Source: an uncultured Bacteroidales bacterium (GTDB taxonomy: Bacteria > Bacteroidota > Bacteroidia > Bacteroidales > Bacteroidaceae). From it: a stretch of 64,000 nucleotides of DNA. Made by a program: the position numbers and the translations under genes. Position 1 is the first letter of the stretch, and each line of letters begins with the position of its first letter. The DNA is taken from contig CADCDP010000005.1 in the NCBI GenBank assembly GCA_902800305.1, positions 1 through 64,000 on the forward strand, given 5' to 3'. Of the stretch, positions 11,508-21,179 are shown one piece after another. The notes beneath the pieces are model-generated. The model did not search any database. It had not been told where the DNA came from and saw only the letters and a list, made by a program, of their open reading frames with translations.

Positions 11508-12290
11508 TTACATCATTGCTATTGAATAATCATCGTGTCCAATGAGACCATTCTTCCAAAGTTTGTACAAATGCTTCTTGAAGTTTCCTGCATTCCTGCA
11601 ATGCAAGATTTTGTCTATGACATCTTTCTCAAAGTCCACCTTCTTAATTCCTAAAGCCGTCCTAATGAAATTGCCATCTTTTGTCTGAGCATCAATAGCC
11701 TCTTGTAGTTCATCTTCATATCGCTCTCTATGAGCCACCTCATACATCATTAATATATAGTGAGCAAGAGCATCACTGGCCACAAATACAATACCATCTT
11801 TCTGAATCTCGAATTGACCAGCCTTAAAACCAACCTCATTCAACGGATCTTTGCAATTCACCAAATAAGGGGGATTGTTGAAACCCACCAATCGCCCAAA
11901 ACTATGCTGCAATTTATCAGATGCTCTGTCATAACAGAATGCCACACTGTCACCATAACTCATCCAGTGCCCATCTTCCCAAACAGCCACAATCGTGGCA
12001 AACGAGCCTTCATCATAGAACTTATTCAAGAGCATTCCACCTTCAACTTTTGCCAGTTCTTCACATTCATTATAGAACGGCTCCCAAATGCCATCTATCC
12101 ATTTATCAAAAGTCTGATAATCTGTGATAGGTTCATCAGGCAGATGCTCCACCAAATACTTAGACCACATATCCGCAAACACTCCTCCACCACCAGCACC
12201 ATCCGAAACGGCAATCCATTTCTGAGTAGCCTTGACGGCATCTTCATTCACGAAGCCTTCTTCAAATTTATGTATAGATAACGCAATCAT
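11508..12290 (-). CDS. PP2C-family Ser/Thr protein phosphatase
   Basis: 260 residues. PP2C signatures in order: NEDAV (residues 16-20), KWIAVSDGAGGGGVFADMWS (metal-binding Asp of the sDGxGG motif), EGSFATIVAVW, SYGDSVAFCYD, VFVASDALAHYI, and DDYSIAMM at the C-terminus, the last metal site. These enzymes remove phosphate from Ser/Thr with two metals. The start overlaps the stop of the DarT-VWA gene by four bases (ATGA), so it is translationally coupled. Two kinases lie upstream in the same island, so it is likely the opposing activity of a phospho-switch. It is the last gene of the unit. Confidence 0.85.
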   Translation of the reverse strand: MIALSIHKFEEGFVNEDAVKATQKWIAVSDGAGGGGVFADMWSKYLVEHLPDEPITDYQTFDKWIDGIWEPFYNECEELAKVEGGMLLNKFYDEGSFATIVAVWEDGHWMSYGDSVAFCYDRASDKLQHSFGRLVGFNNPPYLVNCKDPLNEVGFKAGQFEIQKDGIVFVASDALAHYILMMYEVAHRERYEDELQEAIDAQTKDGNFIRTALGIKKVDFEKDVIDKILHCRNAGNFKKHLYKLWKNGLIGHDDYSIAMM

Positions 12291-13738
12291 TGATTTTGAC
12301 TGATATTAGTGGGTGTTCCAATGTCCATCAATTGAATCAGAGTTGAAAGGTCTGTATTCGTGGCCATTGCAACATGTCTTGCGTTCTCTGCATCGCCACG
12401 CAAATCCCCTATAGGAAGATTGTATCTTGAAGGCAACAGGCTCGACATGTCATAAAGTAATTCGGAGTCTTTGTCACCTTTAAGTTCCGTCTTGCTTACG
12501 GGTAATAATATCTGCTCTTGGTTGTCTGGAGTGACATGTATATTCCAGATAAGCACATTGCCATCATTGGTAAACAATGCTTTTAGTTCATTTGCCAATT
12601 GTATGTTCACCTCTCGAGGATTGACTATTCCATTGAAGGCGCCATCTGTAATATTAATAATGGTAGGAGGATAGCAGTCTTTCTCATGATGTTCTTTCAT
12701 CCATTTGTCAAGAAGTTCTTTGGCCATCATAAACGCTTTGTGCGCCCTTGTGTATTTGCCTACTGCAACAGGTTCGACCCATTGAACCTTTTCCACTTCC
12801 TTCAATTCTACGCCCTTACGCGTCCGTTTTTCCTCTTTAACAGTAATTTTTTTGAAAGGATTGTTTTTTAATTCTTCTGGCGACACAAAATCTCGACCTG
12901 CCAGAATTCCTTTCCAACCATAGTTGGCATCATCACCATAACCGATAACTGCAATATCATAGTAATGTTTTACATCGTTAAGTTTAATACAACGTAAAAC
13001 AAGATTATTGATTTGATCGTTCACGATTCTGGCTACAGCATCTGCCAGTGTAATAAACTCGCCTCGATAATTTAGCTTACGACTCATCGAGATTGACTGG
13101 TCTATCATGAAGATAAATGCCGTAGGCGTATTTCTTGTTATCTGTGCAGTATATGGATTCTTGATTTGCAATTCCTTGGGTTTGGATGGAATAGGAATAC
13201 CAAAGTTGCCAATATTCTTGATATACTCCAATGGGATGAAGTTCTTCACCAGCACTTCTGCCTGAAAGAACACCTGTTCTTCCTCAGGCAAATCAAAATG
13301 CTTACGGGCTTTCACAGCCTGGAAATGAATCTTCTTGAAATCATCCAAAGTTCCACCCACATTCATTCCATTCTTGGCTGCATTCCTGTCTGCATACTGA
13401 GTGTCTTCACCGTATATCACATCCAAATCTATTTCCAAGACAACGGGATTGGAGATGCGTCCATCTTTCATCGCCACATACATCATTGGGTGTTCTTTGG
13501 TAAAACTCACACGCACATACTTCTGCAAACCATATCCTCTATCTATCTGATGTGACGCATCGCTACCACCAGGCCTTGACACTGCAAGCCCCTTTTCCAC
13601 ACAATCTCCCCAAGAATACAAACCACCATTTCTGATAATGGAAGCCAAATTCTCTCTATCCGTAAAGTGATACAACTTCGTGATACCATTCTGGTCAAGC
13701 ACAGCTTTGAACTCCTGCCAATTACTCTTCTTTTCCAT
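12287..13738 (-). CDS. DarT-like ADP-ribosyltransferase fused to a VWA domain
   Basis: 483 residues. Residues about 18-178 look like a DarT domain: KLYHFTDRENLASIIRNGGL (His24 in the Y-H-x-T motif), YVRVSFTKEHPMMYVAMKDG, VVLEIDL, YADRNAAKNG, and FFQAEVLVKNFIPLEYIKNI with Glu161 in the position of the catalytic Glu (the rQAEfLV motif). DarT enzymes ADP-ribosylate DNA bases. Residues about 205-430 are a von Willebrand A domain with an intact metal site DQSIS (213-217) and a later TDG motif. VWA domains of this type bind partners in TerY-like systems. The NADAR-like gene precedes it by 12 bases. This fusion is unusual; guanine or thymine specificity cannot be told from sequence. Confidence 0.7.
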   Translation of the reverse strand: MEKKSNWQEFKAVLDQNGITKLYHFTDRENLASIIRNGGLYSWGDCVEKGLAVSRPGGSDASHQIDRGYGLQKYVRVSFTKEHPMMYVAMKDGRISNPVVLEIDLDVIYGEDTQYADRNAAKNGMNVGGTLDDFKKIHFQAVKARKHFDLPEEEQVFFQAEVLVKNFIPLEYIKNIGNFGIPIPSKPKELQIKNPYTAQITRNTPTAFIFMIDQSISMSRKLNYRGEFITLADAVARIVNDQINNLVLRCIKLNDVKHYYDIAVIGYGDDANYGWKGILAGRDFVSPEELKNNPFKKITVKEEKRTRKGVELKEVEKVQWVEPVAVGKYTRAHKAFMMAKELLDKWMKEHHEKDCYPPTIINITDGAFNGIVNPREVNIQLANELKALFTNDGNVLIWNIHVTPDNQEQILLPVSKTELKGDKDSELLYDMSSLLPSRYNLPIGDLRGDAENARHVAMATNTDLSTLIQLMDIGTPTNISQNQ

Positions 13739-13750
13739 AATAACACCTCT

Positions 13751-14356
13751 TTATTCTTTAAACAAATCCAATTGTAAATTATTGTCCTCTTTCTTTTCTT
13801 TTTCTTCTCCGTATGGATAAGTACCTTCCACGTATGCCTTGATAAGTGAAGCATGAGACAAAGGTTTCTTCGCATTCTCCACATCAGCATTTGTATCATA
13901 ATCCAGCAGCACGATGGTCTTCGTCTTGCTTGCCTCACGCAATCTGTCAATGATGTATGCCACTTTGTTTTCCAGCACCCACTTGTAAGTAGGAATATAA
14001 ATTTGTTTTCTTGCCTCTATATATCCCAACAATTCTGTACCATGCACACCTTTCCGATGTCCCAATGGTTTTCCAAAACGACGAACCGTCCGTTTTATAT
14101 TCTTCATCGTGTCGTTCTGGAATATCTGTACATCCACATCGCAACTTTCAAAAACCTTCAATCCCTGCCAGATGGCTTCTACACATGTTGCGGTATAACC
14201 ATCGCTAAAAGGCACAGGAATACCACCATGAGGATAGAATGGGCTCAGTTTCACCAGTCCATCCTTTGCTCCACTTGTCACATCCGCCAGTATCGCATCT
14301 GGATATTTCTTCAGGATTGTCTCTGGCTTCTTACGTTTTGATTCAATTATAATCAT
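13751..14356 (-). CDS. NADAR-like (DUF6939-type) putative antitoxin
   Basis: 201 residues, no signal. The segment LSPFYPHGGIPVPFSDGYTA followed by TCVEAIWQGLKVFE (residues 38-70) matches the NADAR pattern S-x-F-x-P...G...SVEHYxQxxKF, with Glu60 and Gln64 in the conserved positions. The remainder (RTVRRFGKPLGHRKGVHG, then VLLDYDTNADVE, then KPLSHASLIKAY) agrees with a Bacteroidota/phage family I recall as DUF6939. NADAR proteins hydrolyse ADP-ribose from guanine and act as antitoxins to DarT1. Its location directly before the DarT-like gene supports that role. The name is from memory and the NADAR link is inference from motif spacing. Confidence 0.55.
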   Translation of the reverse strand: MIIIESKRKKPETILKKYPDAILADVTSGAKDGLVKLSPFYPHGGIPVPFSDGYTATCVEAIWQGLKVFESCDVDVQIFQNDTMKNIKRTVRRFGKPLGHRKGVHGTELLGYIEARKQIYIPTYKWVLENKVAYIIDRLREASKTKTIVLLDYDTNADVENAKKPLSHASLIKAYVEGTYPYGEEKEKKEDNNLQLDLFKE

Positions 14357-14568
14357 TTTTTCTTATTCATTATTACCCATTCACCATCTTTGCGTCCACC
14401 TTTGCGTCCAAGAACGCCTATCTTCTTAAGTATAGCAATGTCTCTTTCTATGGTTCTAACATTCATTGTATTCTTTTCCGACATCTTTTCCGACATCTTT
14501 TCCGACATCTTTTCCGACATCTTTTCCGACATTGCTTTTGCGGATATCTTTGAGTCAACGGATATCAT
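14353..14568 (-). CDS. Winged-helix protein with MSEK repeats, detached tail of the AlbA_2 ATPase
   Basis: 71 residues. Residues 13-32 are five MSEK units encoded by five 12-base repeats (14473-14532), followed by a winged-helix segment VRTIERDIAILKKIGVLGRK and GGRKDGEW. In many AlbA_2/COG2865 proteins exactly this part (SEK-type repeat linker plus winged helix) is the C-terminus of the same chain. Here it is in the -1 frame and its ATG overlaps the stop of the upstream gene (ATGA), so it is either made by re-initiation as a separate subunit or is the result of a frameshift. It also overlaps the NADAR-like start by four bases. Confidence 0.7.
   Translation of the reverse strand: MISVDSKISAKAMSEKMSEKMSEKMSEKMSEKNTMNVRTIERDIAILKKIGVLGRKGGRKDGEWVIMNKKK
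14473..14532 (-). repeat. Five 12-bp tandem repeats (MSEK)
   Basis: Five perfect CTTTTCCGACAT units on the plus strand, in frame; copy-number change would alter linker length without a frameshift. Confidence 0.9.
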
Positions 14569-15728
14569 TTTGAGAATCTCTGATTACGATCCTTTACAAA
14601 ATTATTCACATTATTTCTTTGGAATGTTACTCTGACTCCACCCTCCACATCTTCTATCTTAGGCATGGGCAGTCCCGCTTTCTCAAATCCATCTTGAATC
14701 TTTTTGTACCCACGACCCCATGATTCAATAAAGCCGGCTTTGAAAAAAGTATAGGCTATATTTTTATTTCTTGGGTGCGAAGAATGGCGTCTCAACAATG
14801 CTTCTGGTGTCAAATCCCCAGGAAGGCTTCCCTCATTCCAAACTTCCACATAGTCATCCCATACTCTCATCTGTATGGGTGCTCCCATATAGTCCTTATG
14901 AGCGATAGCATTATATAGAATCTCTCGAAGAGCATCTTCTGGAACCTCCAACTTCTCTATACGTTGCATGCCTTCATAATGTATGGGAGATGTGAAGTAC
15001 TTCGTTTTCAAGATTTCAACCACCCGATCTGTCATCTGCAAAATATTGCCTTCTACTACATCCTGCGTAACAAGGTCTGCTTCGTCCTTTCTGAAACGTC
15101 CAATCTTGAACTCCACACAAGTGAAATAGCGTTGAGGTTTCTTAGCAAAAAGGAGTAACGCAGCACTTTTCAGTTTTCCATCTTCGCCAATTAAGTTCAG
15201 ATTTTCCAATACAGATAGTGTCGAAGCATTAGCCTCATCCTCATCAATACGCCCTGCCTTTATCCCTTTACGTAGGAAATAGTCTATGGCACTACGATCC
15301 AAGTCATCAAGTGTAGCATGTTCATTTGTGATGTCATCCCACGAACGCCCCATCTTTTTCAAGACGAACTGCTGAAGAGCTGGCCCACGAAGTTCCTGCA
15401 TGGTACTGCCAGAGCGATAGTAGTACTTTCCTTTGTAGTTGATAGGAATATTGCTGGGTTCTATCACCACTTCGATATACTCCAATCCATCTAATTCATG
15501 GAGGTTCACATCCACAACGATGCCCATTGTGGTGACAATCTTATTGGGAATATCCTCCATCAGCCTATCTACATGGTCAAGACCAACCACTTCATGGTCA
15601 TCATCCACGCCAAAGTACATCACAGCCCCTTGCGCATTTGCAAAGCCGCAAATCCACTCTAAGTATTTGTCATGCCAACTGCGCTTATATTCCACGTTTT
15701 GGCATTCTCTTGCTTTTATCTTTCCCAT
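14565..15728 (-). CDS. AlbA_2 domain/GHKL-type ATP-binding protein
   Basis: 387 residues. An N-terminal AlbA_2 (Schlafen-type) domain at about 9-125 (ECQNVEYKRSWHDKYLEWIC, then FANAQGAVMYFGVDDD) is followed by a GHKL-like ATPase: ALREILYNAIAHKDYMGAPI (N-box, Asn273), VEVWNEGSLPGDLT (G1 box), and a later GRGYKKI. Family members act as transcription regulators or as parts of defence loci. The usual SEK-repeat/winged-helix tail is missing from this chain and is encoded separately at 14568 (four-base overlap). A promoter lies 24 bases upstream, so this gene opens the second transcription unit of the island. Confidence 0.8.
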   Translation of the reverse strand: MGKIKARECQNVEYKRSWHDKYLEWICGFANAQGAVMYFGVDDDHEVVGLDHVDRLMEDIPNKIVTTMGIVVDVNLHELDGLEYIEVVIEPSNIPINYKGKYYYRSGSTMQELRGPALQQFVLKKMGRSWDDITNEHATLDDLDRSAIDYFLRKGIKAGRIDEDEANASTLSVLENLNLIGEDGKLKSAALLLFAKKPQRYFTCVEFKIGRFRKDEADLVTQDVVEGNILQMTDRVVEILKTKYFTSPIHYEGMQRIEKLEVPEDALREILYNAIAHKDYMGAPIQMRVWDDYVEVWNEGSLPGDLTPEALLRRHSSHPRNKNIAYTFFKAGFIESWGRGYKKIQDGFEKAGLPMPKIEDVEGGVRVTFQRNNVNNFVKDRNQRFSK

Positions 15729-15751
15729 ATATATATATTCATTTTTGTATT

Positions 15752-15759
15752 CAAAGATA
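15752..15759 (-). promoter_or_regulatory. -7 box of the AlbA_2 to PP2C unit
   Basis: TATCTTTG on the minus strand, 24 bases before the start at 15728; a TTTG lies about 21 bases further upstream, a plausible -33 element. Confidence 0.65.
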
Positions 15760-15777
15760 CGAATTATTAGTCAGCAA

Positions 15778-17181
15778 TCACAAATAGAATTTTGATGTAA
15801 GAACCATGCGTTCTGCTTCATTATACTCGTCCTCCAAATGCACCAAATCGTCGGGGAAAAACATCCACGAATAATAACTTGTCGCCAACCCCAAATGTTG
15901 TTCTGCTGCTAATTTAAAAAGTTTTTCAGCCTTTTTGTGGTCTCTTGTGACTCCTACGCCGTTTTTATGGCAGATCCCAAGATTAAATAAAGCTAAAGAA
16001 AAATTTTTTCTTGCTGCTTTACGAAAACATAAGAATGCTTTGGTTGCATCCTTTTCAACATGAAGCCCATAAGCATACATATACCCAAGTCCGTTTTCTC
16101 CTAATGCACTTCCACAGACCTTTCCTGCTACACCCTCCATCGGTATTCCTTGCGAACGACCTGTTTTAGCTAAATTATAGAATATGTTATAGGCTTCCTC
16201 ATATTTCTTTTCCTCCACATATTTTGTTCCTTTCACATATGAAGAAATTATTGTCTGTATATCTTCTTTCTGAACTTTCGTTATATTGAGCAATCTATAA
16301 GATAATAAGGATAAATCATTCTTGGCACAAGCAATAATGAAAATACCATACAAAATACAGAAATCTTTATCATACATCAAAGACTGTAGAGCAGAGATGC
16401 ATGGACTAGTATTTATATTTTGGAAATCATGCTCCGTAAACAGCAAATTGTCATTCCTTCCAAAATTTGTCCATAGTGAAGGATTTAATGCGATTGCTTT
16501 TAATGACAATAAAATAGACGCAATAGGGAAATCATCGATGTGTTCATCAAAAACATCCTCTGTTCGATATGGATGACGAAAGCCAGAGCTTCCCAACTCA
16601 CGTGCTTTCTGCCCCTTCATTGCAGGGACAAACATTCCATCATAATCAACAAGCACAAGGATGCCATCCTCTCTAATTAGAATATTATCTAACTTCAAAT
16701 CGCCATGAGCAAATGATTGAGTTAACAGCCATGCGGCAAGTTTGCCGAACTGATAAGCAAGTATATCTAATGCATATTGATTATTGATGTTTTCTTTTAT
16801 ATAGACATCAAGAGTTACACCCTCCACCCAATCCATCAACAATACAGGGAACTCCTCTTCATCAGAGCTTTTTGTATCCACAAATAATTCGTTCTCCAAA
16901 TATTTAATTGGAGTCAAATAATTGGAAGAGACAAATTCCAACTCATCCGAAATCAGTTTGTAGCTTTCAGCACGTCCTTCCTGTTCCTTCGTAAAACACT
17001 TAACAGCATAAAGTTTGCCATCTCGTTCATCTTTCATCTTAAACACCACAGCAAAACCGCCATTCGACATCACGGGCTGTCCCATGTTGTCTAACACAGG
17101 ACGCAGATAACTTAATTCATCAAAGTTATCTTCTGCTGATTTGATGGACTCTATATATTCTGATATTAATGGGTAATTCAT
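15778..17181 (-). CDS. Ser/Thr protein kinase with Sel1 repeats
   Basis: 467 residues, no membrane segment. The kinase domain (about 30-245) has GGFAVVFK (41-48, glycine-rich loop), AVKCF with Lys61, HGDLKLDN (159-166, catalytic loop) and DYDG (179-182, DFG equivalent). The C-terminal half carries Sel1-like repeats such as GYMYAYGLHVEKDATKAFLC and GICHKNGVGVTRDHKKAEKL, which usually mediate protein contacts. It is a close paralogue of the kinase at 18038-20011, the first 35 residues being nearly identical. It is separated by six bases from the upstream frameshifted gene. Confidence 0.85.
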   Translation of the reverse strand: MNYPLISEYIESIKSAEDNFDELSYLRPVLDNMGQPVMSNGGFAVVFKMKDERDGKLYAVKCFTKEQEGRAESYKLISDELEFVSSNYLTPIKYLENELFVDTKSSDEEEFPVLLMDWVEGVTLDVYIKENINNQYALDILAYQFGKLAAWLLTQSFAHGDLKLDNILIREDGILVLVDYDGMFVPAMKGQKARELGSSGFRHPYRTEDVFDEHIDDFPIASILLSLKAIALNPSLWTNFGRNDNLLFTEHDFQNINTSPCISALQSLMYDKDFCILYGIFIIACAKNDLSLLSYRLLNITKVQKEDIQTIISSYVKGTKYVEEKKYEEAYNIFYNLAKTGRSQGIPMEGVAGKVCGSALGENGLGYMYAYGLHVEKDATKAFLCFRKAARKNFSLALFNLGICHKNGVGVTRDHKKAEKLFKLAAEQHLGLATSYYSWMFFPDDLVHLEDEYNEAERMVLTSKFYL

Positions 17182-17187
17182 AATTCT

Positions 17188-18038
17188 TCAAATTAATAAT
17201 GTTCTATCTTTTTTAATAAGAGACCTCACAAATTCGGAAAGATGATTAATGTTAAAATCTGGCTGATTTATCATATTGGTACCTGAGTGCCAAGCTTCAT
17301 TCCACATTTTTTCCTTGTCCATGGGGAACGTATTTAAAATAGCTCCTATCATTTTATCTGCAATGGGAATACTTTCATACATAACTCCTTTTATTTGTTT
17401 TATATCATTTACAGGAAAATTACTTAAGCAGAGTCCATGAGCAAATTGAGGTAAATAATGCTGATAATAATTTGCCATATTATCGTTAAATCCTATTTGC
17501 TTGTATATCATTCCATACTTCAACGGGGTTGGATTTTGTAAAGATTCATATTTCCAATTTGCATGTTTAATGATTTTTTCAACATTCTCATCCTTTTGTT
17601 CTGAATAAGGATGGGACTGAAGTTGATGTTTCAATTGTATTATGATTGTATTACAAACTTTTTCATACTGTTGTACATCGCCTTCTTTTTCCATAATTCC
17701 TTCAACAACATGTTGTTTATAGGTTTTATAACCGTCCAAAGCATATAGATAATGCCTAAACATTATTTCGTTTTCATCATCTCTTTGATAAATAAAACAA
17801 TATGTTGCCACGTTATCTAAAATACCACGCAATACACATCGAACAGACACCCATCTTGACTCTCATTTGTAAACATCTCAAGAGTATGAAACATACGTAC
17901 TATCTTCTGGATTATAACCGTTCTATAATGGCCAGTATTCTCCAAAGAACTCTCCGTATACTTCCGAGAAAGATACTCTGAAAAGAAATCCATCAATGTT
18001 AGATAGAACTTAAATATTGTATAGTTTGCTTTAATCAT
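17188..18038 (-). pseudogene. Helical protein (DUF5677-like), frameshifted
   Basis: Two overlapping reading frames together make one protein of about 283 residues. The first (start 18038, MIKANYTIFKFYLTLMDFF onward) ends ...NESQDGCLF. The second continues ...SVRCVLRGILDNVATYCFIY to 17188. Adding one base near 17852 would give the natural join NESQ-x-WVSVRCVLRG. The long hydrophobic-helical pattern recalls DUF5677-type proteins, but this is weak. The ATG overlaps the stop of the kinase gene by one base (TAATG), so it belongs to that unit. It could be a real one-base deletion, a sequencing error, or a rarely corrected frame. Confidence 0.55.
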
Positions 18039-20011
18039 TATATATCTATTTCTTTAACACTCACCCTACTTGATATATATTTTCTTGCCCATTCTATCCT
18101 GCCTTTTGATACAAGAATCTGCATAGAATAACCATGCGGAAAGTCCTCGTAATAACAATTATCAAATGCATCTTTCCCTATATACCTGATATTGTCATGA
18201 ATGTAGAGTTGCCTAAATGGACAGCCATAAAAAGCATGCTGCCCAATATGAGTTACTTCATGTGGAATCTGAAAAGACAAATCTTGAGAAAGACAACAAA
18301 TTACGAATCTTTTACCTTGTGTATATATAGTCTTGTTTTCCAATTCAAATAAATATGCATTATTATGAATAGTCAAAAATCTATCATATAAAAAAGGATT
18401 AACACCGAGGTTTAAAACAGTTGATGGTATAGTTATCGATCTAAGCGACATACACCAAGAAAACGCAAAACTACCAATAGATATAAGACCGTCAGGTAAT
18501 TCTATTTCTTGAAGTCTCTCACAGTTACTAAAGGCACATTGTCCGATAGTTTTTATACTATCTGACATCTTAATCTTTTCTAATAATGGGCAACCTTGAA
18601 ATGCATAATCTCCAATAATTTTTATAGTAGAAGATAATTTCACATATTTTAATCCTCTTCCAGCAAAAGCGTAATTTCCAATTGTTTCGACTCCTTCGGG
18701 AATGACAAAAAAATCTCTCTTATATCCATAATAGCCAATTAAATGTCTCCTGTCAGCAGAATAAAAAGCATCATCCACTAATCTAAAATTCCAAGAATTA
18801 CAAATTACACTGACACCACAAAATGCAAAAGGATTTTGTCCAATGTATTTGACACTCTGTGGTATTGTTATTTGCTCTAAATGATTCCAACCAGATCCAT
18901 CCGACCAGTAACTACCCGAAAAAGCTCGATCACAAATGATTTCTGTTCCTGCATGTATTTCATATGGTTCAAACATTCCGCCACCTCTTATAAGTTTTTT
19001 CCCATCCTTACTATATCTTACACCTTTTTCATCTTCTATCCACGCTTCATTATTATTTTCATAGACTCTTGTGTAGCTGAACATATTTGAAAACTTGCGC
19101 TCGGAACACAAATCATTTAATGTCGATTTAACACCTTGACTAGCCCTAGAATGTGTTATTAAAGACATAAAGATAGAATATGTTAAAGCAAAATCTTTTA
19201 TGGATAACAAATATAATAATGTAGGCATAATCGGAGCTTGAGATATATCACGATAATCGCTTTCTGACAACAACAATCTATGAGATTCTCCGTATTCTTC
19301 AAGTAATAAAGGGCTAACAGATATTGCTTTTAACGAAAGAAGTATAGATACTAAAGGGAAGTCATCTATATGCTCATCGAAATCATCCTCTGTTCTCAAA
19401 GGATGGCGAAAATCGGGACTGCCCAATTCACGAGCTTTCTGTCCCTTCATCGCTGGCACATACATTCCATCATAATCGACAAGGACAAGAGTGCCATCTT
19501 CACGAACAAGGATATTATCTGGTTTCAAATCACCATGTGCGAAAGGTTGAGGGATCAACCACTGTGCCAACAGACTGAAACGATATGCCAACATTTCAAG
19601 GGCATATTGGTCATCAAGATTCTCACGTAGGTACTTGTCAAGTGTGATGCCCTCTACCCAATCCATCAGCAAAACAGGGAACTCCGTCTCATCCGTTTGG
19701 CTGCTATCCACAAACAGCTCCTTATCAATATAACGGAACGACACCAAGTAAGGCGACGCTACATCCTTCAATTCCTCTTCAATCAGTCGATAACTTTCAG
19801 CCCTTCCCTCTTGGTCACGATGGAAACAACGAACAGCATACAACTTTCCATCCCTTTCATTCCTCATCTTGAACACCACAGCAAAATTCCCACTCGACAT
19901 TACAGGCTGTCCATCTGCATCCAACACTGGTCGCAGATAACTCAGTTCCTCAAAGTTATCCTCCGCCATCTTAATAGCCTCCACATATTCTGATATTAAT
20001 GGATAATTCAT
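18038..20011 (-). CDS. Kinase-like protein with BspA-type leucine-rich repeats
   Basis: 657 residues from MNYPLISEYVEAIK at 20011. This start is chosen because the paralogous kinase begins identically and because a -7 box lies at 20033-20040; the longer upstream frame would overlap that promoter. The kinase domain has SGNFAVVFK (40-48), HGDLKPDN (159-166) and DYDG (179-182). The beta-3 lysine, Lys61 in the paralogue, is Arg here (AVRCF), so catalysis may be impaired or altered. The C-terminal half (about 370-640) contains LRR_5 repeats of the surface-protein type (FVIPEGVETIGNYAFAGRGL) although no signal peptide is present. Confidence 0.85.
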   Translation of the reverse strand: MNYPLISEYVEAIKMAEDNFEELSYLRPVLDADGQPVMSSGNFAVVFKMRNERDGKLYAVRCFHRDQEGRAESYRLIEEELKDVASPYLVSFRYIDKELFVDSSQTDETEFPVLLMDWVEGITLDKYLRENLDDQYALEMLAYRFSLLAQWLIPQPFAHGDLKPDNILVREDGTLVLVDYDGMYVPAMKGQKARELGSPDFRHPLRTEDDFDEHIDDFPLVSILLSLKAISVSPLLLEEYGESHRLLLSESDYRDISQAPIMPTLLYLLSIKDFALTYSIFMSLITHSRASQGVKSTLNDLCSERKFSNMFSYTRVYENNNEAWIEDEKGVRYSKDGKKLIRGGGMFEPYEIHAGTEIICDRAFSGSYWSDGSGWNHLEQITIPQSVKYIGQNPFAFCGVSVICNSWNFRLVDDAFYSADRRHLIGYYGYKRDFFVIPEGVETIGNYAFAGRGLKYVKLSSTIKIIGDYAFQGCPLLEKIKMSDSIKTIGQCAFSNCERLQEIELPDGLISIGSFAFSWCMSLRSITIPSTVLNLGVNPFLYDRFLTIHNNAYLFELENKTIYTQGKRFVICCLSQDLSFQIPHEVTHIGQHAFYGCPFRQLYIHDNIRYIGKDAFDNCYYEDFPHGYSMQILVSKGRIEWARKYISSRVSVKEIDI

Positions 20012-20437: not shown

Positions 20438-20525
20438 GAGACGAAAAACGTTTCGCGATGGAGACGAAATGTGTTTCGTGGTGGATACGAAATGTGTTTC
20501 GTGGCAGTTGCGAAACAAAGTGGGG
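20438..20525 (+). repeat. Palindromic array A (23-bp units) in the HU leader
   Basis: Three 23-base units (20438-20460, 20461-20483, 20484-20506) and a partial fourth. Each contains ACGAAA-nnnn-TTTCGT or a close variant, a 6-bp hairpin. The array lies in the 5' untranslated region of the HU-like gene. Confidence 0.8.
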
Positions 20526-20546
20526 AGTGATAACATTTATTCTTTA

Positions 20547-21179
20547 ATGAAGATGATGGAATATATTATGGAAGAGATGCCAGACATTCATAAGACTGGC
20601 GAAAAAAAGTATTATCCGAAAGTGAAGCATGCTCGGCGCATCTCTCACAACACGATTGTGAATTTGTTTAGGGATGTGTCAACGATGAGCCGCAGTTCGA
20701 TTGAGGGGGTGATGAAAGAGTTGCCGGAGGTGCTGAACATGTATCTGTCACAGGGACATTCGGTGAAGATAGAAGGTTTTGGCACGTTCGATGTGATTTT
20801 GGGGCGGTTGACGGAAAAGGAGATGGCGAATAAGAAGAAGAGATGGAAGGTGCATGCGAACATGAGTGGGGTCTATATCAAGAAAATCAACTTCTTGCCT
20901 GACTCAGAATGGATGTTAAAGTTGCGTGGCTCAACGGATTTGTGTCATGGGAAGAACCTCAAGGAGCAGTTTGGCATGACGTTGACGGAGGAAGACCGCC
21001 GAGAGATTGCGATGGAGTGTATCAAGAAGAAGGGGAGTATGAGTGTAAGGGATTATATGCTTCGGACGGGAACGGAACGTGTGACGGCGGAACGGGATTT
21101 GAAGAGGTTCTGTGAGGATGCGGAGAGTGGCATCCGCTGTGTGGTTGAAGGGGATAATAAGGTGTATGTGAAAGGTTGA
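20547..21179 (+). CDS. HU-like DNA-binding protein with C-terminal extension
   Basis: 210 residues from the ATG at 20547 (MKMMEYIMEEMPDIHKTGEK); the upstream part of the frame is the palindromic leader. Residues about 10-110 are an HU-like domain with SIEGVMKELPEVLNMYLSQG and HSVKIEGFGTFDV. The C-terminal part (about 140-210, LTEEDRREIAMECIKKKGSM, then LRTGTERVTAERDLKRFC) looks like a helix-turn-helix extension typical of larger Bacteroidota HU relatives. It probably binds DNA and could bind its own palindromic leader. msrC follows after 27 bases. Confidence 0.8.
   Translation: MKMMEYIMEEMPDIHKTGEKKYYPKVKHARRISHNTIVNLFRDVSTMSRSSIEGVMKELPEVLNMYLSQGHSVKIEGFGTFDVILGRLTEKEMANKKKRWKVHANMSGVYIKKINFLPDSEWMLKLRGSTDLCHGKNLKEQFGMTLTEEDRREIAMECIKKKGSMSVRDYMLRTGTERVTAERDLKRFCEDAESGIRCVVEGDNKVYVKG

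Follow-up and report, generated by a model that had tools for sequence, protein, structure and literature searches.

A gene island at positions 11508–20011 of the 64,000-nucleotide stretch analysed here (the window) has a conserved core composed of a DUF6939 gene, a gene that joins a DarT ADP-ribosyltransferase (ART) domain to a TerY-type VWA domain (DarT-VWA), a PP2C-type phosphatase gene and, upstream, at least one Ser/Thr kinase gene. We consider it moderately probable that this core is a TerY-P phosphorylation triad with a DarT1-class toxin as its output, most likely an anti-phage system of the abortive or growth-arrest kind. The window belongs to a 3.67-Mb Bacteroidales genome in 70 contigs, whose closest named relatives are rumen Prevotella metagenome-assembled genomes (MAGs).

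Layout and conservation of the core

Every gene of the island lies on the minus strand with intergenic gaps of at most about 50 bp, and the order of transcription is LRR-tailed kinase, helical gene, Sel1-tailed kinase, AlbA_2-GHKL, DUF6939, DarT-VWA and PP2C (Table 1). An earlier reading made from the sequence alone (the original prediction) had listed these genes with their near-touching spacing and domains, which were confirmed by Pfam (LRR_5 + Pkinase, Sel1 + Pkinase, SLFN_AlbA_2 + HATPase_c_4, DUF6939 and DarT) and PADLOC. The PADLOC matches to TerY, STK_OB and PP2C also bear out the likeness to TerY-P that it had pointed out.

From searches of genome collections and from whole genomes, 33 non-redundant DarT-VWA loci were examined (the window, L013–L037, L042, L004, L061, L060 and L051–L053), with hosts among Prevotella-like rumen MAGs, Prevotella sp. 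P3-122, Parabacteroides distasonis and other Bacteroidales. The PP2C gene was located 3ʹ of DarT-VWA in all 32 loci whose contig continues, and DUF6939 was located upstream in all 32 whose contig reaches there. A YhcG nuclease gene stands between DUF6939 and DarT-VWA in L017 and L023, while in L033 the DUF6939 copy adjoining DarT-VWA is damaged and a near-full copy lies upstream. The DarT-VWA and PP2C genes overlap by 4 bp in most loci, and the gap between DUF6939 and DarT is usually about 12 bp. Where at least about 4 kb of upstream sequence was available, 23 of 24 loci had one or more kinases whose HGD and DYDG motifs are intact; a locus has up to four of them, and their tails are LRR, Sel1, WG or unassigned. 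Strict co-conservation holds for DarT-VWA, the NADAR-like DUF6939 gene, PP2C and one or more kinases, as the original prediction had supposed. Its wider claim of one conserved system embracing the full gene set was not supported, as loci differ in their AlbA_2-GHKL and helical genes and in how many kinases, and of which type, they carry.

Among 395 phylum-wide genomes, the TerY-like VWA alone was common among the matches, and the full fusion was found in the window's own genome only; within the window's family it is sporadic. Sequenced phages gave no match to the fusion, none of the viral contigs searched encodes a relative, and the plasmids searched carried DarT-like or VWA-like parts only, with no full fusion.

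Catalytic residues and folds

The closest PDB sequence match of the DarT part was E. coli C7 DarT1 (8baq). Residues H24, T26, M85, N119 and E161 were invariant in 24 aligned rows and are the counterparts of H17, T19, M71, N104 and E152 of DarT1, with E161 aligned opposite the alanine that replaces E152 in the crystallised mutant (E152A). As N104, which positions guanine in DarT1 (residue roles are given in PMC11543638), has a conserved counterpart, guanine is the predicted target of this domain. DarT structures were among the top Foldseek matches of the DarT-VWA model, and a second structural comparison listed VWA rows only, with Z up to 18.6, because the VWA domain fills the list.

The VWA metal-site residues D213/S215/S217, T330 and D365 were invariant in the alignment of relatives. 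For PP2C, which had neither a Pfam nor a PDB match, D30-G31, G113-D114-S115 and D173 were invariant across 23 homologues. Both window kinases carry the DYDG motif, together with HGDLKPDN in the LRR-tailed and HGDLKLDN in the Sel1-tailed kinase. The STK_OB profile was covered at positions 1–274 of 562 only, and the tails are LRR_5 or Sel1; as they have no OB fold or zinc ribbon, we filed the locus as a TerY-P variant.

The structural model of DUF6939 reached a predicted local distance difference test (pLDDT) score of 86.5. Its only significant Foldseek match in the PDB was the NADAR antitoxin of Geobacter lovleyi (8bat, E 9.5e-4), and structural comparison ranked 8bat (Z 10.4) and YbiA (Z 8.1) above a next row at 3.7. 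A sequence profile search of the PDB gave nothing useful, and the NADAR relation was visible by structure only. Residues E60, K67, K88 and D152 are kept in the alignment of 23–24 relatives and, in our own mapping by spacing, appear to match E88, K95, K115 and D171 of the E. coli C7 antitoxin. With DarT1 the closest by sequence and a NADAR fold in DUF6939, both the ART and the NADAR fold were seen, in agreement with the proposed likeness to DarT-NADAR toxin–antitoxin pairs, and the model makes DUF6939 the likely antidote of DarT.

Elsewhere, a 418-amino acid protein in L055 (7814–9070) fuses DUF6939 to a Pfam NADAR domain and also gives a weak match to the DarT1-associated NADAR model; no DarT was found near it. 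Lone DUF6939 genes occur in L074 (8410–8952) and L075 (8619–9161). Neighbors of the latter match phage families (nicotinamide phosphoribosyltransferase, adenylosuccinate synthetase-like and Sir2), and L075 may represent an NAD-related cluster without DarT.

Accessory genes, promoter and mobility

The helical gene, the AlbA_2 gene and the second kinase gene are accessories that can be exchanged, and the genes found in the variable slot adjoining DUF6939 encode nuclease or nucleic-acid-binding domains. In L022, L026 and L027, a single intact AlbA_2-GHKL protein of 467–470 amino acids has a winged helix-turn-helix (wHTH) at its end, in frame; judging from these relatives, the stretch at 14353–14568, originally taken for a separate winged-helix gene, is the frameshifted C-terminal tail of the AlbA_2-GHKL gene, which was found in some relatives only. 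This tail contains about five in-frame copies of a tandem 12-bp repeat (ATGTCGGAAAAG) at 14472–14533, and the reading frame of the relative in L021 likewise stops at these repeats. The helical gene, correctly called as frameshifted, has a single frameshift in the window and an intact 283-amino acid version in L022; its protein had no Pfam family above the cut-off and no PADLOC family.

Two transcription units had been suggested for the island. An exact match to TTTG-N21-TA-NN-TTTG (15784–15752) just ahead of the AlbA_2 gene agrees with this, in a window where 12 Bacteroidota-type promoter sites were observed and 0.92 were expected by chance. The site is part of the AlbA_2 cassette, being present in L026 too, and is not general; a conserved promoter between the kinases and DUF6939 was looked for in the relatives and did not turn up in most loci. 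Going by its promoter motif, two units are plausible for the window.

The island first outlined is larger than the conserved system, and many relatives have an extra gene that the window lacks. It lies directly 3ʹ of PP2C in L015 (12242–13489) and 12 other loci and encodes an unassigned N-terminal domain (phrog_2072) and DUF1810 (PF08837). This downstream gene may be an additional component of the system.

The island is mobile. Its GC content is 38%, compared to 48% in the flanks, and the distance from aroB to the GAF gene is about 2 kb in genomes G010, G011 and G033, which have an empty site there, compared to 11.6 kb in the window; G011 has its own copy of the locus on another contig. Six loci have, upstream of the full DUF6939 gene, fragments of it that start at codon 1 and are 9 to 190 codons long. 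They look like scars left where cassettes entered the kinase array, a pattern to be expected from repeated insertion of kinases and accessories at the boundary of DUF6939. Adjoining the island, an HU-like DNA-binding gene (window 20469–21179) is a member of a family for which genomes of the genus give up to six matches each.

Table 1. Positions of the island genes in the window and of related features in other loci
Feature	Locus	Position	Strand	Evidence or remark
Ser/Thr kinase with BspA-type LRR tail, 657 amino acids (aa)	window	18038..20011	-	Pkinase + LRR_5; STK_OB 5.4e-54, kinase domain only
Helical protein gene, two open reading frame pieces, accessory	window	17188..18036	-	one frameshift; no family match
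Ser/Thr kinase with Sel1-repeat tail, 467 aa	window	15778..17181	-	Pkinase + Sel1; STK_OB 1.4e-52
Bacteroidota-type promoter match TTTG-N21-TATCTTTG	window	15752..15784	-	24 bases ahead of AlbA_2 start codon
SLFN AlbA_2 + HATPase_c_4 protein, accessory slot	window	14565..15728	-	Pfam
wHTH tail of AlbA_2 protein, out of frame	window	14353..14568	-	intact relatives
DUF6939 protein, NADAR fold, 201 aa, likely antidote	window	13751..14356	-	PF22075 E 7.2e-78; model
DarT ADP-ribosyltransferase domain (aa ~20-198) fused to TerY-type VWA (aa ~195-476)	window	12287..13738	-	PF14487 3.9e-37; TerY 7.2e-47
PP2C-type phosphatase, 4-bp overlap with DarT-VWA	window	11508..12290	-	PADLOC PP2C 1.4e-8
DUF6939 fragment	L023	6912-7109		
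DUF6939 fragment	L027	2934-3056		
DUF6939 fragment	L028	7195-7311		
DUF6939 fragment	L030	7452-7478		
DUF6939 fragment	L033	7231-7800		
DUF6939 fragment	L053	6311-6430		
DarT-DUF6939 + ZorA/ZorB-like genes	L038	9284-13403		ZorB1 E 1.4e-17 (value for the four loci listed)
DarT-DUF6939 + ZorA/ZorB-like genes	L040	9722-13403		
DarT-DUF6939 + ZorA/ZorB-like genes	L058	7520-11338		
DarT-DUF6939 + ZorA/ZorB-like genes	L072	8284-12406		

Proposed mechanism and alternatives

We propose that Ser/Thr kinases with different tails (LRR, Sel1 or WG repeats) would sense infection or stress and phosphorylate the VWA platform or its bound proteins, and that the co-translated PP2C would undo this phosphorylation as a reset. 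The phosphorylation state would set whether the VWA-fused DarT domain is held inactive or released. Once released, DarT would move ADP-ribose from NAD+ onto guanines of single-stranded DNA, blocking replication. The DUF6939 protein, translated just ahead of the toxin, would clear low-level marks and would therefore set a threshold and allow recovery. What the computation establishes is the gene architecture, its co-conservation, the folds, the kept catalytic residues and the mobility.

Several points weigh against this proposal. The phospho-switch, its direction, the guanine target and the phage trigger are parts that we infer. The counterparts of DarT1 R52 and D54 in the NAD-binding loop align ambiguously, the window having H63 where most relatives have R, and the confidence of the DarT part of the model is modest, about 45–87 pLDDT by block. 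The kinases have no OB fold or zinc ribbon of the described TerY-P, and the DUF6939 antidote could act by binding, not by hydrolysis.

DarT and DUF6939 also occur as stand-alone pairs without the triad (L038–L040, L058, L072 and L076), which fits the idea that they are an ordinary toxin–antitoxin addiction module joined to a TerY-P triad, with separate phosphorylation genes that exert no control over the toxin. We regard this as unlikely, since DarT and VWA form one polypeptide in the main clade, the PP2C gene shares 4 bp with the fusion gene in nearly every locus, and in L056 (2614–4131) DarT sits at the C-terminus of a PP2C-like domain, followed by DUF6939, a separate TerY VWA and PP2C. Chance linkage is disfavoured because the gene order is kept across genera.

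It is distinctly unlikely, in our view, that the locus governs host growth or a stress response (e.g., replication stalling) with kinases sensing internal cues instead of phage. According to PMC12170906, DarT of M. tuberculosis controls stationary-phase growth and adaptation, and no phage ligand is proven for the Sel1 and LRR tails; however, the island is sporadic, mobile, low in GC and accompanied by empty sites, its sensor tails are diversifying, and its triad is homologous to the tested anti-phage TerY-P.

That DarT is a regulatory or binding part of the triad and no toxin, the effector being an accessory (AlbA_2-GHKL, the YhcG nuclease or the kinase tails), is very improbable, because, in spite of the nuclease or nucleic-acid-binding genes beside DUF6939, the DarT and NADAR catalytic residues are kept in alignments of 23–24 relatives, the accessories vary or go missing while DarT-DUF6939 persists, and DarT and DUF6939 are absent jointly from L057.

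In L057 the kinase, VWA and PP2C are kept, both DarT and DUF6939 are missing with no remnant found, and the VWA is 71–73% identical to VWAs fused to DarT. Separately, the tail of the L057 kinase (1–1407) resembled a double-stranded RNA-binding motif by eye, with no Pfam match at E 0.1. A DarT-DUF6939 pair followed by ZorA/ZorB-like genes was found in Bacteroides xylanisolvens, B. bouchesdurhonensis, a P. distasonis plasmid and L058, which is from the window's genus; the plasmid also has a site-specific integrase at most 9 kb from the locus. From their gene content, these loci are possibly a Zorya-like system with a DarT effector. The joint absence in L057, the PP2C-like fusion in L056 and the ZorA/ZorB-adjacent pairs argue that DarT-DUF6939 is one unit. 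Tentatively, and with some doubt, we suggest that this unit may be an exchangeable toxin–antidote cartridge serving different front ends that sense infection, both TerY-P kinase arrays (through a VWA or PP2C-like fusion) and a Zorya-like ZorAB motor, and in the kinase version with the differently tailed kinases forming a growing input repertoire that feeds one toxin.

If the proposed phosphorylation-controlled toxin is real, the locus places an ADP-ribosylation toxin under reversible protein phosphorylation in gut and rumen Bacteroidales. DUF6939 gains a fold and a likely role from this analysis. The target controlled by the TerY-P switch was not stated in the literature searched, and this locus offers a concrete likely output; as that output lies in the same polypeptide with its antidote alongside, the question of the TerY-P output becomes testable.

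Comparison with known systems

TerY-P modules are reported as anti-phage in PMC11090510 (citing Gao 2020) and PMC10889362. As in TerY-P, a TerY-type VWA, a PP2C and an STK_OB-type kinase domain are found in one cluster here. However, the TerY-P kinase has an OB fold or zinc ribbon, whereas the kinases of the present loci are multiple with LRR, Sel1 or WG tails, and their VWA forms one protein with a DarT toxin, a DUF6939/NADAR antidote being added.

The actinobacterial GAP1-N2 GTPase conflict systems (PMC7159879) have the same three signalling parts, a kinase, a PP2C and a stand-alone vWA, but no DarT or NADAR is described for them, and their core, phylum and associated genes differ. Zorya is linked to the locus through the Bacteroides and Parabacteroides loci that place a related DarT-DUF6939 pair beside ZorA/ZorB-like genes. 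Unlike the window locus, they lack TerY, PP2C and kinase genes adjoining the pair, and the window locus in turn has no ZorA/ZorB motor genes by Pfam and PADLOC. In the open-access papers searched, no relevant text on ZorA together with DarT was found among the matches listed, and no description of DarT-DUF6939 combined with a TerY-P triad was found.

DarT1-NADAR is described in the literature as a toxin–antitoxin pair (DarTG1) based on guanine ADP-ribosylation. Here, too, a DarT1-like ART that keeps the guanine-positioning Asn adjoins a NADAR-fold protein, but the antidote is DUF6939 (PF22075) instead of PF22397, and the toxin is tethered to a phosphorylation triad. The locus joins two known systems, TerY-P and DarT1-NADAR, in a new variant.
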